From the NCBI GenBank assembly GCA_017541465.1, contig JAFXYZ010000071.1, forward strand, positions 1 through 61,276: 61,276 nt of DNA, given 5' to 3'. The notes under the pieces were generated by a model. That model was not told the DNA's origin and did not search any database. It saw nothing but the letters and a program-made list of their open reading frames with translations. How positions within the stretch are numbered: position 1 is the stretch's first letter; the number at the start of each line of letters is the position of its first letter. Positions 2,754 to 59,395 of this stretch are shown here, one piece after another. A program made the position numbers and the translations under genes. The stretch comes from a bacterium (GTDB taxonomy: Bacteria > Cyanobacteriota > Vampirovibrionia > Gastranaerophilales > Gastranaerophilaceae).

Positions 2754-4022
2754 TTATTCGGAATATTTTTTGAATAAAACAGCTGCGTTATGCCCGCCAA
2801 AGCCGAAGGAATTTGTCATTGCATACTTAACATTCATCTCTTGCGCCTTATTCGGTACATAATCTAAATCTGCCGTTTCCTCAACTCTGTTTTCAAGATT
2901 AATAGTCGGAGGAACAACTCCGTCTAAAATAGACTCAATGCAGACAATAGATTCGACAACACCCGCAGCACCGAGCAAATGTCCTGTCATTGATTTTGTT
3001 GAGCTTACTTTCAGCTTTGGATTTTCGGTTCTGTCACCAAAGACAGACTTAATCGCTCTTGATTCCGCAATATCACCAAAGTGGGTTGAAGTTCCGTGTG
3101 CGTTAATATAATCAACCTCTCTTGGTTCAATTCCAGCGTCCTTAACCGCTAACTCCATAGCCTTTGCCGCGCTTGTTCCCTCAGGATTAGGCGCAACAAT
3201 ATCATAAGCATCCGAGGTCTGACCATAGCCGACAACTTCTGCATAAATTTTAGCACCGCGCTTTTTGGCATGCTCTAATTCTTCAAGAATTAAGACCCCT
3301 GCGCCCTCGCCCATAACAAAGCCGTCTCTGTCTTTGTCAAACGGTCTTGAAGCCTTTTCCGGCTCCTCTGCGCGTCTTGAAAGCGCCTTCATAGCGCAGA
3401 AGCCTGCAATACCAATATCGCAAATGGCAGCTTCACTTCCGCCTGCGATAATAACATCGGCTTCGCCCCACTGGATAGCTCTGAAGGCATCACCCACGCA
3501 GTTTGCAGAAGTAGCACATGCGGTAACAATAGCTTTATTAATACCTTTTGCACCGAACATAATTGAAATTTTCCCTGCCGACATGTTAGCAAGCAGCATC
3601 GGAACAGTGAAGGGGGAGCACTTTGAATAGCCTTTGGCTATCATTGCTGTATGGTTTTGCTGAATTGTATGAAATCCGCCTGCGGCAGAGCCGACAATAA
3701 CACCAAATCTGTATTCATCCACATCATCTTTTGTTAAACCCGAGTCCTCATAGGCATTTTGCGCTGCTACACAGGAATACAGGATAACTTTATCGTATTT
3801 TTTGGCATCCTTAGGATCAAAATAATCTTCAGGGTTAAAAACACTTTCCTTTATTTCGCCCGCAAACTTTGCACTGTGGCTTTCGGGATGCTCTACACTT
3901 TCAATACGGGATATACTGCTTTCACCATTTTTCAAAGCAGTCCAAAACTTATCAACACCGACACCGTAAGCACTTAAAATCCCCATTCCGGTGACTACTA
4001 CTCTTTTTTTGTCATTTCCCAT
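2754..4022 (-). CDS. fabF: 3-oxoacyl-ACP synthase II (KAS II)
   Basis: FabF condenses malonyl-ACP with acyl-ACP in type II fatty-acid elongation in the cytoplasm. At 422 residues it has family-typical length and opens with VVVTGMGILSAYG. The Cys-His-His triad is visible: the nucleophile Cys in VTACATSANC, the His in NAHGTSTHFGD and the His in SMTGHLLGAAG, plus the C-terminal NSFGFGGHNA loop. It is the last fatty-acid gene of the leftward operon, 87 bases after acpP. Confidence 0.97.
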   Translation of the reverse strand: MGNDKKRVVVTGMGILSAYGVGVDKFWTALKNGESSISRIESVEHPESHSAKFAGEIKESVFNPEDYFDPKDAKKYDKVILYSCVAAQNAYEDSGLTKDDVDEYRFGVIVGSAAGGFHTIQQNHTAMIAKGYSKCSPFTVPMLLANMSAGKISIMFGAKGINKAIVTACATSANCVGDAFRAIQWGEADVIIAGGSEAAICDIGIAGFCAMKALSRRAEEPEKASRPFDKDRDGFVMGEGAGVLILEELEHAKKRGAKIYAEVVGYGQTSDAYDIVAPNPEGTSAAKAMELAVKDAGIEPREVDYINAHGTSTHFGDIAESRAIKSVFGDRTENPKLKVSSTKSMTGHLLGAAGVVESIVCIESILDGVVPPTINLENRVEETADLDYVPNKAQEMNVKYAMTNSFGFGGHNAAVLFKKYSE

Positions 4023-54839: not shown

Positions 54840-55685
54840 TTACTCTTCAGATTCATATATACCTGAAAGATATTTCTTTTTAACAAACGTTACATCGTAT
54901 TCTGTTGTATATCCGCATTCAAGATTTTCTACGGATACAAACTTTGTATTTAATTCCCTGTAAGCAGGATTTATATGTAAAGGAACAAATCCGCAGCAGT
55001 CCAAGAAATTAATAATATCTGTATATGAAGGTTGCCCGATATATTTTTCAATCGTTATCAATTCAATATAAATCACATCAATATTATCATTAATCAAATA
55101 TTCCTTTAAATTTTTTAAGATTTCCAATTCATAACCCTGAACATCAATTTTCAGAATTTTTATATCTGTATTAAAAGAATTCCAATACTCAGTTTCAGAA
55201 TTAGCCTCTATCATTGAAACAGAATAATTAACGGTTGGAATATCCCTGCCGAAATATTTATAATTTGAATTGAGTTTGAAAACACTGCTCAATCCCGTAT
55301 CATTATATGCTTCATTTATTGATATTTCCTTAGTTTCAGCGCCAAGGGCAACATTTTTAAACTCAAAATTATCGTAGAGTTTTTTTAAATCTTCAAGTTC
55401 TTTATAACTTGATTTTAACGGTTCATAAGAAATCACAAAGCAGTTTTTGAAAAAATGCTTTGCCATTTTCACACTATACCCTTTATTTGCGCCAATATCT
55501 ATAAACAAACAACTTTTATCTTTAACAATCAGATTTTGTATATTTTTATAATCAAATGTATAATACTGACTGATATACATATCATCTATTTTTTCTTTTT
55601 CATATCCGCCAAAGATACATCGTGTTGTATAACTTTTTATACGGCTGATTTTATTTATTATTTTCTTTTCCAACTCGAGAAGCAT
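54840..55685 (-). CDS. FkbM-family methyltransferase
   Basis: The 281-residue SAM-dependent enzyme has the binding loop LFIDIGANKGYSV, then SYEPLKSSYKELEDL, FKNVALGAETKEISI and ILKIDVQGYELEILKNL. FkbM enzymes O-methylate sugars or lipids. The surface-glycan context suggests sugar O-methylation. It is five bases after the cupin gene. It is AT-rich like its neighbour. Confidence 0.88.
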   Translation of the reverse strand: MLLELEKKIINKISRIKSYTTRCIFGGYEKEKIDDMYISQYYTFDYKNIQNLIVKDKSCLFIDIGANKGYSVKMAKHFFKNCFVISYEPLKSSYKELEDLKKLYDNFEFKNVALGAETKEISINEAYNDTGLSSVFKLNSNYKYFGRDIPTVNYSVSMIEANSETEYWNSFNTDIKILKIDVQGYELEILKNLKEYLINDNIDVIYIELITIEKYIGQPSYTDIINFLDCCGFVPLHINPAYRELNTKFVSVENLECGYTTEYDVTFVKKKYLSGIYESEE

Positions 55686-55690
55686 TATAC

Positions 55691-56017
55691 TTAACCCCCA
55701 ATATACTTATCATTATTAGCACCCGGAAATTTAACAACTACATTTTGTGTTCCGTCTTCAAGACATTCAAAATCAGTTGCTTCATTCGGCTCCATAACGA
55801 TTATATCCCCTTTTTGATATTCAACACCGTTCATTTTCACTCTGCCTTGGGTAATCACCGTTATTTCCGTTGCAATTTTGTGATAGTGTCTTTCTTCATA
55901 ATCACCTTTTTTATATTCTTTAACCGCAACTTCAACATCGTTCGTCTTTAAAAGTGTCGGCTCAAAATTCCCGACAAACCAGCCTTTTGTCATATTTTCC
56001 AATTTTGCGGTTTTCAT
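55691..56017 (-). CDS. Cupin-domain protein
   Basis: The 108-residue protein is a single small beta-barrel. The metal-binding cupin motif is ERHYHKIATEITVITQGRVK and the second is KGDIIVMEPNEATDFECLED. It could be a sugar isomerase/epimerase-like cupin or a sensor. It is one base downstream of a nucleotidyltransferase in a tight five-gene cassette. Confidence 0.85.
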   Translation of the reverse strand: MKTAKLENMTKGWFVGNFEPTLLKTNDVEVAVKEYKKGDYEERHYHKIATEITVITQGRVKMNGVEYQKGDIIVMEPNEATDFECLEDGTQNVVVKFPGANNDKYIGG

Positions 56018-56018
56018 T

Positions 56019-56753
56019 TTAAACTAATTCCCCTGTTTTTATTTTAATGTATTTATCCAAATCCTCGGGAGTTCCCGTTCCGTGCATTTGATTTTTATCA
56101 ATGGAATAAATACCGAATTTCCTGCCCTTTTCGATTGCATAATTATATACGGGCGCGACATAAAATTCATTGTTTACCCGTTCATTTCTGACAATCATAT
56201 CAATGGCATTTTCAACAAAATCTCTGCCTTTTCTGAAATAATAAATCCCTACGGTTGCGTTTTCAGAGATAACTTCTTTTTCTCTTATCATTGTAATGAA
56301 GCCGTTATCATCAAGTTTTGCATAGGACCATTTTGTGTCCGTAGCATAAAAACAAAGAACAGAACCGTCAAGGTTTCTGGTTTCACTGTCATTTATATAA
56401 TCAGAAATATTCATATCAACAATCTGGTCTGAATTTGCAATAAGTAAAGGCTCATCATTATTGATTAAACGGTGTGCATATAGAACTGTGCAGGCTGCAC
56501 CTTCCGTTAATTTGTCAATCAAAACAAACTCGGCATTATAGTTTTGTTTAATATAATTAACAGTTTCCTCTTCACTGTTATAGTGTTCGGAGCGCGCAAG
56601 AAGAATAAATTTAGCATTATCTGTCTTTAAATTATCCAAAACATGGCAAATCATCGGTTTGCCCAGAACATCAATAAACGGCTTTGGCTTTTTATATCCT
56701 GCTTTTAAGAACCTCGAACCTGCACCTGCCATCGGGATTACAAGGTTTATCAT
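56019..56753 (-). CDS. Sugar/alcohol-phosphate nucleotidyltransferase (second copy)
   Basis: The 244-residue GT-A-like nucleotidyltransferase has INLVIPMAGAGSRFLKAGY, KPKPFIDVLGKPMICHVLDN, EGAACTVLYAH, IANSDQIVDM and NEFYVAPVYNYAIEKGRKFG. I choose ATG 56753, preceded by AGGAGG at about 8 bases, because longer frames start inside the upstream gene. It is paralogous to the next gene upstream. The activated substrate is unknown. Confidence 0.85.
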   Translation of the reverse strand: MINLVIPMAGAGSRFLKAGYKKPKPFIDVLGKPMICHVLDNLKTDNAKFILLARSEHYNSEEETVNYIKQNYNAEFVLIDKLTEGAACTVLYAHRLINNDEPLLIANSDQIVDMNISDYINDSETRNLDGSVLCFYATDTKWSYAKLDDNGFITMIREKEVISENATVGIYYFRKGRDFVENAIDMIVRNERVNNEFYVAPVYNYAIEKGRKFGIYSIDKNQMHGTGTPEDLDKYIKIKTGELV

Positions 56754-56754
56754 C

Positions 56755-57477
56755 TTACCCCCTCCTGTGCGCCAGATAATTTTCGTACATTTGGTATGTT
56801 GAAAAAGAAATATAATCTTTCCTCGGGATTTCAAAAATTCCTATTCTTTTCTGCTCTAAAATCATTTCATTAAAAGTCGAGCTTATATAATACTGTCCCT
56901 GGGTATTAGAATCTTTTTCAATAACTTTAAAAGCTGCCTGAACAAAATCTCTGCCGTCTTTAAAATAACAGCAACCCGTTGAAGCCATATCAGAAATCGG
57001 ATGTTTTTCACTTGTCTGAACAACCATATCATTTTCATCAAGCAAGACTGAACTGTATTTTGGATGAATTGCTTTCATCGTAACAATTCCGCCATCAAGT
57101 TTTCTTTCTCTGAAATCGTTTATTGCCTTTAATAAATCAGCCTTTATATACTGATCACCATTTAAAATAACCAGTTCTTCATCTTGGTTTATATCATCAA
57201 TCGCAAACAAGGCACTGCATACAGCACCTTTTGTTTCGCCTGAAACTTCAAGCACTCTGCATTTATCTGACAAAATTTTCAGGGTATCCCCTAAAAAGAA
57301 TTTTTCCTGATCGGATTTACGGATAATACAGGTGATGTGTTCGCCAAAGCCCTCCAAAGATTCAATTATTCTCTGAATAATCGGCTTATTATGTAATTCA
57401 ATTAAATACTTTGGATAAGGATAACCTTTTTCTTCAAAATCTTTTGCACCGCCGGCCATTAATACTAAAATATTCAT
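56755..57477 (-). CDS. Sugar/alcohol-phosphate nucleotidyltransferase (first copy)
   Basis: The 240-residue protein has NILVLMAGGAKDFEEKGYPY, PKYLIELHNKPIIQRIIESL, EVSGETKGAVCSALFAI, LVILNGDQYIKADL and GQYYISSTFNEMILEQKRIG. The first Gly-rich loop is atypical (AGGAKDFEEKG for AGxGxRF). It ends one base before its paralogue begins. The pair may use different nucleotides or act as heterodimer. Confidence 0.83.
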   Translation of the reverse strand: MNILVLMAGGAKDFEEKGYPYPKYLIELHNKPIIQRIIESLEGFGEHITCIIRKSDQEKFFLGDTLKILSDKCRVLEVSGETKGAVCSALFAIDDINQDEELVILNGDQYIKADLLKAINDFRERKLDGGIVTMKAIHPKYSSVLLDENDMVVQTSEKHPISDMASTGCCYFKDGRDFVQAAFKVIEKDSNTQGQYYISSTFNEMILEQKRIGIFEIPRKDYISFSTYQMYENYLAHRRG

Positions 57478-58128
57478 CTATTCGCCTCCCGCAACAAGAT
57501 TTTCCTGCTCTATTTCATTAATTTTTTTCTTTATGTTTTGATAAGTTACATCATAAACAGTTTCAACTTTTAAAAGTTTTGCACCGCTCATAAGAGCCGC
57601 TTTAACACCGTTTTGGTTATCTTCCACGACAAGACACTCTGAAGGGTTATATCCGAAACGATTAATTGCTGTCTGATATATCTCAGGATCAGGTTTTGAC
57701 TTCTTTACATCCTGGTTAGAGAGGGTAAAATCAAAATACTTCTGTAAATCGGCTTTTTCCATCATCATATCAATTGTTGCTCTGACGGAATTTGAAGCTA
57801 ATGCAAGGCCGTATCCTTCCTTTTTTAGCCTTGCCAAAGCATACTGATGATTAAATAAGGGTTTACACTTCATATAAACATACTCTAAAGTGTAAATCTG
57901 TTTCATGTGATTAATAAAATTATGCAACCCCCTCGGCAAACCTTTTTCGAGGGTTAACATTTCAAGTTTTTTGCTTGTCGGCAGTCCGTCAAAAGTAACG
58001 AGATGGTCGTAGCGTGAAATATTATAGCCAAACAGGTTTAATGCCTTATTTAAAGCCTCATAGTGCCAGTCTTTGGCATCAATTAATACTCCATCCATAT
58101 CGAAAATAATAGCTTTTATTTTAGTCAT
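57478..58128 (-). CDS. HAD-superfamily phosphatase/phosphomutase
   Basis: The 216-residue protein shows all four HAD motifs: IIFDMDGVLIDAKDWHYEAL, LALASNSVRATID, KKSKPDPEIYQTAINRFG and CLVVEDNQNGVKAALMSGAK. The cap is the C1 type of beta-phosphoglucomutase relatives. In this cassette it probably dephosphorylates or isomerises the precursor that the nucleotidyltransferases activate. It abuts the next gene and overlaps the upstream one by eight bases. Confidence 0.88.
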   Translation of the reverse strand: MTKIKAIIFDMDGVLIDAKDWHYEALNKALNLFGYNISRYDHLVTFDGLPTSKKLEMLTLEKGLPRGLHNFINHMKQIYTLEYVYMKCKPLFNHQYALARLKKEGYGLALASNSVRATIDMMMEKADLQKYFDFTLSNQDVKKSKPDPEIYQTAINRFGYNPSECLVVEDNQNGVKAALMSGAKLLKVETVYDVTYQNIKKKINEIEQENLVAGGE

Positions 58129-58735
58129 TAAAAAATTCCTTCGCGCCCATGGGATTATCCGTGCACAACATCAAATTTGGGTTATTGATATTTTTATATC
58201 TGTTCCAGATTTCTTTGTATTCACGGTTGTGCAATTCAGGTGACACTATACAAACCTGCTTGTTTTTATTCAGCAGGGAATTAATTTCTTTTTCACAGAA
58301 CCAGTCAGAATTGAAACTGTCCAGCCAAACACCTTTTGCCTGATTAAGCAAGACAGGATTTGTTATTATATCGCTATATCCCGTAAAAACATTGAGTTTC
58401 AGGGCAAGCTGGCAAACCATATCGGGAATACTCATATCAAATGTGAAGTAGTTTTTATGATTATACTTTTTTAAAAGCTTTTTTATTTCTTCACCCTGTC
58501 CGTCGGCTTTTATATTAAGAGCCAGAAGAATATTACTTCCCCGAATAAGCTGAAGAAACTCTTCAAACGTCATTTCATCACCCTGGGGCATGTTATGGGA
58601 AATAACTATTTTGCCTGAAATATCTCTTAAATCTGTTTCAATACCAAAACCATACTCAACGGCTCGTTCAAAAGCTGTCTTAGAATTTTTTTCTTTTTCT
58701 GTTTCCCAATAGCCCCGATGAGCAATAATATGCAC
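58121..58735 (-). CDS. Glycerophosphodiester phosphodiesterase-like protein
   Basis: This short 204-residue member of the GDPD/PI-PLC barrel has HIIAHRGYWETEKEKNSKTA with the catalytic His-Arg, GFGIETDLRDI (metal-binding Glu and Asp) and IVISHNMPQGDE (catalytic His; Asn replaces the usual Asp). There is no signal peptide, so it acts inside the cell. It is the first gene of the cassette and could supply or remodel a phosphodiester intermediate. Confidence 0.82.
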   Translation of the reverse strand: MHIIAHRGYWETEKEKNSKTAFERAVEYGFGIETDLRDISGKIVISHNMPQGDEMTFEEFLQLIRGSNILLALNIKADGQGEEIKKLLKKYNHKNYFTFDMSIPDMVCQLALKLNVFTGYSDIITNPVLLNQAKGVWLDSFNSDWFCEKEINSLLNKNKQVCIVSPELHNREYKEIWNRYKNINNPNLMLCTDNPMGAKEFFND

Positions 58736-58875
58736 TTTTCGTTCCTTAAATTCCTGCTGAATTATTTATCTTCAATAAGCTCCAAGACTATTGTATTTCA
58801 AGAACTATACAAATTCAAATATTTTATTTTTCTTATTGAAAAATAAGGAAGAGAAAAATTTTGAAGAACAATAAT

Positions 58876-58907
58876 AAAAAAGACCTGCCTGTTAGCAAGT
58901 CTTTTTT
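58876..58907 (-). terminator. Terminator-like hairpin of module 2
   Basis: AAAAAAGAC / GTCTTTTTT, extended by TGC / GCA across one mismatch, directly 3' (minus strand) of the tRNA-Gly fragment at 58911. Confidence 0.7.
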
Positions 58908-58910
58908 ATT

Positions 58911-58928
58911 AGCGGGAGACGAGGCTCG
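58911..58928 (-). repeat. Copy of tRNA-Gly 3' end (18 bases)
   Basis: AGCGGGAGACGAGGCTCG is identical to 59324-59341 of tRNA-Gly (T-arm 3' half, acceptor 3' strand, discriminator base). Confidence 0.8.
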
Positions 58929-59060
58929 TGTCTTGAAAAATTTGCATTAAACGTGTCTTCGGTTTTTCTTTACCCAAAATGTATTTGTAAAGAAAAGACC
59001 TCCGCACTCTGCAAATTTTTCGCAACTCGCTCTGTCGCTCGTTCTTCGCCTTTGCCAAAA

Positions 59061-59102
59061 TAATAAAGAACCGATGAACAAAAGTCCATCGGTTCTTTAT
59101 TA
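59061..59102. terminator. Terminator-like hairpin of module 1
   Basis: TAATAAAGAACCGATG and CATCGGTTCTTTATTA are perfect 16-base arms around a 10-base loop, ending exactly where the tRNA-Gly fragment at 59102 begins. Confidence 0.75.
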
Positions 59103-59117
59103 GCGGGAGACGAGGCT
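59102..59117 (-). repeat. Copy of tRNA-Gly 3' end (16 bases)
   Basis: AGCGGGAGACGAGGCT, identical to 59324-59339 of tRNA-Gly; the next base diverges. Confidence 0.8.
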
Positions 59118-59289
59118 GTCTTGGAATTTCTTCACGCTCAAGCAGTCGTCCTTTTGGGGCTTTGCCCCGGTCGGACTTTTGCTTTCGCTACCCGAGTTTC
59201 ACTCCGTTCCACTCGTCCGAAATTCCGCTCGAACTCTGAGACAAAACTCCGTTTTGTTGAGTTCTCACCTCGTTTCACGAACATTAAAA

Positions 59290-59309
59290 AAAGCACCTAT
59301 CGGTGCTTT
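59290..59309 (-). terminator. Intrinsic terminator of tRNA-Gly
   Basis: AAAGCACC-TATC-GGTGCTTT, followed on the minus strand by seven U. Confidence 0.85.
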
Positions 59310-59320
59310 ATTGTTTTAAA

Positions 59321-59395
59321 TGGAGCGGGAGACGAGGCTCGAACTCGCGACATCTTCCTTGGCAAGGAAGCATTCTACCACTGAATTACTCCCGC
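59321..59395 (-). tRNA. tRNA-Gly(GCC), CCA encoded
   Basis: A 75-base cloverleaf with acceptor GCGGGAG / CTCCCGC, anticodon stem CTTCC / GGAAG with loop TTGCCAA (GCC at 59361-59363), T-loop GTTCGAGCC, and a 3' TCCA. Its 3' end is duplicated twice downstream (59102, 58911). Confidence 0.94.

Follow-up and report, generated by a model that had tools for sequence, protein, structure and literature searches.

Units ending in copies of tRNA 3' ends behind tRNA genes of a gut bacterial family: candidate stacked mini-integrative elements

Why should a tRNA gene be followed by further copies of its own 3' end? In the window, that is, the whole 61,276-nucleotide stretch of DNA analysed here (contig 36 of a draft Gastranaerophilaceae genome, 2.1 Mb in size), the tRNA-Gly(GCC) gene (59321..59395, minus strand; ARAGORN; Rfam RF00005, 66.2 bits) is succeeded by two such copies. 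The last 16 bases of the gene before CCA, which read AGCGGGAGACGAGGCT on the plus strand, recur as an exact 16-nt copy at 59102..59117 and as part of an exact 18-nt copy at 58911..58928 (16-nt part 58911-58926), both on the minus strand and with start-to-start spacings of 222 and 191 bp. A preliminary description of the locus had reported these copies, each with its own differing terminator-like hairpin, and we could confirm both points: the hairpins behind the two copies are unrelated in sequence, and for the whole window the chance expectation of tail sites with up to 2 mismatches is 0.04, three sites being obtained in none of 100 shuffles. The same description placed the array beside a surface-glycan locus. 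The genes at 54840-58735, on one side of the array, do look like surface-glycan genes, a call that rests on reading their translations and not on a family search, but their adjacency is incidental. Most of the relatives retrieved through the polyprenyl-synthase gene nearby bear the name Candidatus Gastranaerophilales.

The array consists of two units, all features of which lie on the minus strand. Unit 1 (59102..59320) displays the full plan, namely a terminator, a flank, an inverted T-arm, a hairpin, a core, the motif CAAGACA and the tRNA 3' end copy. Its terminator-like hairpin (~59290-59309), an inverted repeat read directly from the sequence, stands immediately behind the tRNA and upstream of the structured part. 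There follow the 5' strand of stem P1 (59267..59273; the inverted T-arm, ACGAGGT), with 12 of 17 bases equal to the reverse complement of the tRNA-Gly T-arm; the stem-loop P2 (59231..59264; GAACTC..GAGTTC, apical loop C-GGA-G), assigned by its loop class and by a match to the family-wide motif at 59226-59266; the P3 core (59123..59226), closed by GGAATTTC/GAAATTCC and belonging to a repeat family dispersed in the same genome; and the right end CAAGACA (59117..59123), identified from per-position conservation in 41 modules. Folded as single-stranded DNA, unit 1 has a z of -3.1, and the window module adopts a three-way junction. Unit 2 (58911..59101) has diverged, its alignable identity to unit 1 being ~61%, and has the GCG-core-CAAGACA part in common with it. 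It begins with a different terminator-like hairpin (59061..59102; arms 59061-59079/59084-59102, inverted repeat I1, 19 nt, 95%), continues with a diverged left part and a different P3 core (58935..59021), closed in the fold by the 12-nt perfect inverted repeat I5 (58935-58946/59010-59021), and finishes with CAAGACA and the second tRNA 3' end copy. Past this last copy, a further terminator-like hairpin (58872..58911; inverted repeat I2, arms 58872-58888/58895-58911) is probably the original terminator of tRNA-Gly, because its position parallels the empty-site comparison presented below.

These units are not peculiar to tRNA-Gly. A scan of the 46 tRNAs of the host genome for 3'-end copies downstream revealed similar units behind about 10 of them, and across the family they were found at no fewer than 14 isoacceptors. 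Besides the two copies at tRNA-Gly(GCC), the host genome contains copies behind Ala-TGC (+214), Ala-GGC (+256), Ser-CGA (+186), Ser-GGA (+182) and Asp (+176) and, at shorter spacing, behind Met (+86) and Pro-TGG (+88), and units at contig ends terminate in Leu-CAG and Val-TAC tails. The sequence between tRNA and copy forms a repeat family that is present elsewhere in this genome too.

Some related arrangements were recorded alongside. At tRNA-Asp (L030, G000:C56:20378-20606), the P3 core is inverted between the tRNA and the tail copy. Away from tRNAs, further copies of the P3 core (GCG-stem..stem'-CAAGACA) were seen (L097, L099, L100, L109 and L110 of G000, and L002-L004), repeatedly right behind terminator T-runs and within CTCC..GGAG hairpins, and often nested. 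As a mirror image, copies of the tRNA 5' end (12-20 nt), broken in the D-loop, were seen 100-130 bp upstream of the tRNA at Val-TAC, Val-GAC, Pro-CGG and Pro-GGG of G000 (L015, L031, L034 and L036, respectively) and also upstream of a tRNA-Thr (L123); in the Val-GAC, Pro-CGG and Pro-GGG copies the break is a conserved insert, ACTCTGCCGA..hairpin..GAGAGG.

To what extent are the units shared by other bacteria? The motif GAGAACY-N(10-30)-RGTTCGAGCG matched 139 of the 288 genomes of the host family, representing 26 of its 41 genera, as compared with ~13 matches for the reversed pattern used as control; outside the family, in the rest of the phylum, matches were at control or chance level. A same-strand tRNA (Ser, His, Asn, Met, Leu, Gly, Gln, Lys, Thr or Asp) lay upstream in 26 of the 30 motif loci fetched, the motif starting 31-72 bp behind it in 22 of these and further downstream in the other four. 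Most of the genomes compared are metagenome assemblies, whose contigs often break within these repeats, and the comparisons are drawn from genera of the family other than that of the host. The 206 loci obtained from viral contigs in two motif scans were all devoid of a unit, which speaks against a viral origin. The P2 hairpins are slightly homogenised within genomes (0.494 vs 0.466, p ~0.02), a weak sign of within-genome spreading.

A typical unit is geneless and measures ~150-220 bp, and the distance from tRNA to copy is 144-258 bp in nearly all geneless units. Counted from the tRNA, a unit comprises a flank of 20-65 bp, in some cases including a terminator, then the inverted T-arm, the perfectly paired hairpin P2 with its triloop of the GNA type, GTTCGA as the 5' strand of the T-arm, GCG, the variable stem-loop core P3, CAAGACA and, as the tRNA tail, the 3' strands of T-stem and acceptor. 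Among the 41 modules recognised by their tail copy, the inverted T-arm agreed with the local tRNA in, on average, 11.9 of its 17 positions (other tRNAs, 9.9; shuffled, 9.2) and fitted its local tRNA in 39, and the right end was kept across 16 tRNA types (per position: C31 A34 A36 G34 A33 C27 A37). The motif with which many loci were fetched prescribes GAGAAC and GTTCGAGCG but makes no demand on the right end or on linkage to a tRNA. The centre TC of the T-arm is usually changed to GA in the inverted copy, and therefore GA faces GA in the folded strand; inverted and direct T-arm, once paired, reproduce the target duplex within one folded strand, with its centre unpaired.

Such folding raises the question of whether the units act as RNA, that is, as a structured RNA transcribed with the tRNA, having a role in tRNA processing or regulation, whose folding or processing the tail copies would serve. 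The folds are strong (mean z of -4.2 against shuffles in 37 modules), the tRNA-sense strand has a lower fold energy than its complement in 32 of these 37, and the junctions are conserved, all of which would suit an RNA. However, in the window, as at several other tRNAs, the structured part is separated from the tRNA by a terminator, and in the window it need therefore not be co-transcribed with the tRNA. Furthermore, G-U pairs account for only 12 of the 679 inner pairs of P2 stems, and their share over whole modules (sense 4.7%, antisense 7.1%) contrasts with that of the tRNAs of the same loci (8.7% and 4.2%). The apical triloops are C-[AG]NA-G in 33 of 35 cases and C-GNA-G in 29 of 35, and the GNA class is extraordinarily stable in DNA mini-hairpins (PMC4686876). 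On these three counts, the hairpins look DNA-like. In addition, the units had no match in Rfam, the motif is missing in half of the family genomes, and many congeners are devoid of the unit at the same tRNA. Overall, we consider a role as structured RNA very unlikely.

The number of units proved to vary. At tRNA-Thr(CGT), genomes of a single genus carry three units (G069), two (G296 and G325), one (G318, G300, G326 and G271) or none (for example G301, G322, G320 and G244). Modules constant in all relatives, with no recombinase, would in the preliminary description have indicated simple old tRNA duplications; the numbers do vary among relatives, but the units could not be connected with any recombinase. 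Alignment of G318 with G301 (L481 and L484) disclosed exactly 160 bp inserted between TTCG and AGTCTCCCCATCGGCA, with a 16-bp direct repeat represented once at each end, and in one of the two species the native flank follows the copy, whereas in the other it follows the tRNA. The inserted unit brings its own tail, GGCACCA, the native tail being without CCA, and carries a flank unrelated to the native one. The alignment shows the pattern of site-specific insertion, but the same empty site would result if the segment between the repeats were precisely deleted. In the units generally, a direct repeat of the tRNA 3' end stands at both borders, as is expected of a tRNA-integrated element. A second, weaker empty-site pair was also found (L503 vs L489).

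Could the arrays nevertheless be old tandem duplications of a tRNA 3' end and its terminator, inherited vertically and without integration, the number of which changed by slippage or unequal crossing over? Several features agree with this, namely near-identical tandem arrays (96-100%) at Leu, Ser, Gly and Thr, arrays ending in truncated units, repeats whose 15-18 bp are long enough for slippage, and the lack of any recombinase association. Duplication does not sit well, however, with an identical anatomy at 14 or more isoacceptors and in 26 genera, with the foreign flank carried by the unit of the empty-site pair, with cargo genes between units, or with the stacking of differing units at one tRNA. 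In some arrays, including that of the window, the units have 53-73% alignable identity, and because they differ to this degree, these arrays are not simple tandem duplications. Since some arrays are near-identical and others mixed, stacking and tandem amplification probably both occur. Some of the variation is accounted for by slippage among old duplications; the spread over many tRNAs, the mixed arrays and the cargo are not, and we hold it unlikely that the units are duplications of this kind.

As to cargo, two units at tRNA-Ser(CGA) of the host genome enclose a 4-kb island that encodes an HNH nuclease and two C5-methyltransferases, and units at tRNA-Ser(GGA) of a relative enclose the genes of a Gp49-like toxin and an HI1420-like antidote. 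At two more loci, a GIY-YIG gene and a 334-aa gene devoid of a Pfam match, respectively, stand between tail repeats, and neither locus has a complete unit to itself. The units might then be the attP arm pairs of ordinary genomic islands whose cargo was deleted: the tRNA T-loop is a known target of integrases, and the restriction-modification and toxin-antitoxin islands carry the same unit beside the tRNA copy. Yet integrase-bearing islands at tRNA-Val and tRNA-Ile in relatives lack the unit, and geneless units, nearly all within the range of tRNA-to-copy distances given above, far outnumber those with cargo. We judge this origin to be distinctly unlikely. The related suggestion of the preliminary description, that the modules are remnants of stacked islands, holds to the extent that a few real cargo islands use the same site, but the anatomy is conserved and is not that of random leftovers.

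The search for a tyrosine recombinase, advised in the preliminary description, yielded candidates in the genome, none of which was linked to the units. The units, being too short for an integrase, encode none. Five tyrosine recombinases are present in the host genome, two of them Xer-like, one phage-type beside tRNA-Glu, one of 425 aa and one of 185 aa consisting of the catalytic domain only. The first four were scanned for the integron integrase (TIGR02249), and all fell below the 265-bit cut-off. Among 20 recombinase neighbourhoods of the family, none held a unit. The phage-type integrase gene (L130, G000:C40), beside tRNA-Glu(TTC) at 3073-3145, apparently belongs to an ordinary integrase-bearing island. 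The 185-aa type represents a conserved family of orphan tyrosine recombinases of ~180 aa (L509, G000:C21:35185-35739), with homologues in 65 of 97 family genomes, up to 6 copies per genome and 46-80% identity between genera. This conservation made it an attractive candidate, but it was rejected as the mover: its presence was not associated with that of the units in the 97 genomes (Fisher p = 0.28) or in the more complete ones (p = 0.80), and it did not adjoin units in the recombinase neighbourhoods inspected. Two RAYT-type transposase genes (L133 and L134; G000:C25:34682 and C18:26249) are flanked by palindromic repeats, GTAGGTTGGGC..GCCCAAC. These repeats form a different family from the units, and mobilisation of the RAYT/REP type was likewise discarded.

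On balance, we think it just probable that the window modules are stacked non-autonomous mini-integrative elements, which insert at the tRNA T-loop and are moved in trans. The tiny integrating elements envisaged in the preliminary description are the reading best supported by the dispersal over many tRNAs, the varying number, the possession of an own tRNA tail and the empty site. Each unit, endowed with a tRNA 3' end copy of its own, would insert in the T-loop or 3' half of the tRNA gene that matches it; the tRNA would be rebuilt with the tail of the incoming unit, and the old tail, together with the old terminator, would be displaced downstream; and repeated insertion, with later slippage between the 15-18 bp repeats, would produce arrays of 0 to 3 units. 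Anatomy, dispersal, variable number, insertion boundaries and, at some loci, cargo are what we observed; the units would in addition move actively, through a site-specific recombinase presumed to act in trans, for which the folded hairpin may be the substrate. Weighing against mini-elements are the finding of no recombinase in or near the units, with the orphan recombinase unassociated, the possible origin of clean empty sites by precise deletion, the 96-100% identity of several arrays, as tandem duplication would give, the two cargo islands that have bordering repeats but no complete unit, and the lack of units in the viral-contig loci.

If mobile, the units would, to our knowledge, be among the smallest site-specific integrating elements described. 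A landing site and a folded DNA signal would be enough for mobility, the enzyme being supplied in trans, and the units would occupy tRNA genes throughout one animal-gut bacterial family, offering a handle on the entry of restriction and toxin-antitoxin genes into recombinase-poor genomes. A bolder proposal, suggested because the hairpins look DNA-like and the T-arm copies fold into the target duplex, is an integron-like system private to this one gut bacterial family. In such a system, tRNA genes would be the fixed target, and small cassettes, either empty or carrying toxin-antitoxin or restriction genes, would be inserted via a single-stranded DNA hairpin that mimics the T-arm, without an integron integrase. 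We regard this proposal as speculative and, taken whole, unlikely. The inverted T-arm hairpin with its DNA-type loops makes a single-strand mechanism of the integron kind directly testable.

Our literature searches found no paper describing such units, and four known systems invite comparison. Islands and prophages integrated in tRNA genes by tyrosine integrases, with att sites in the T-loop or 3' end, likewise show a tail repeat, a restored tRNA, stacking, variable presence and precise insertion; the units differ from them in their size of ~150-220 bp, the absence of an integrase, the conserved inverted T-arm hairpin and the many tRNAs used by a single family of units. At the E. coli tyrT/rtT locus, 178-bp repeats each contain the last 19 nt of tRNA-Tyr, and they are usually assumed to result from slippage or unequal crossing over with vertical inheritance. 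Like the units, they follow a tRNA, are of comparable size and contain a tRNA 3' end each. The units differ in that they lack a match to Rfam RtT, occupy many tRNAs, are heterogeneous, contain an inverted T-arm and in some cases hold cargo. REP elements mobilised by RAYT, which bear a GTAG-type tag, and the Rickettsia palindromic elements resemble the units in being short, structured, non-autonomous and genome-wide (PMC3733652); unlike REP/RAYT, the units have neither the GTAG tag nor a RAYT linkage and are site-specific at tRNA T-loops. Lastly, integron attC sites are folded, inverted site copies with an unpaired centre (PMC2727003). The units are set apart from integrons by their tRNA target, by the lack of an integron integrase over the cut-off, by an attC sequence consensus that was not shown in them, and by a core of roughly 70-190 nt inserted in the centre, on one side. 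In architecture only, they share with attC the folded inverted copies, the unpaired centre, where the fold with its GA/GA mismatch may be likened to the attC single-strand site, and the hairpin end, and they share with integron cassettes the small cassettes, including ones with toxin-antitoxin or restriction genes, and the growth of arrays beside a fixed target (PMC2727003).
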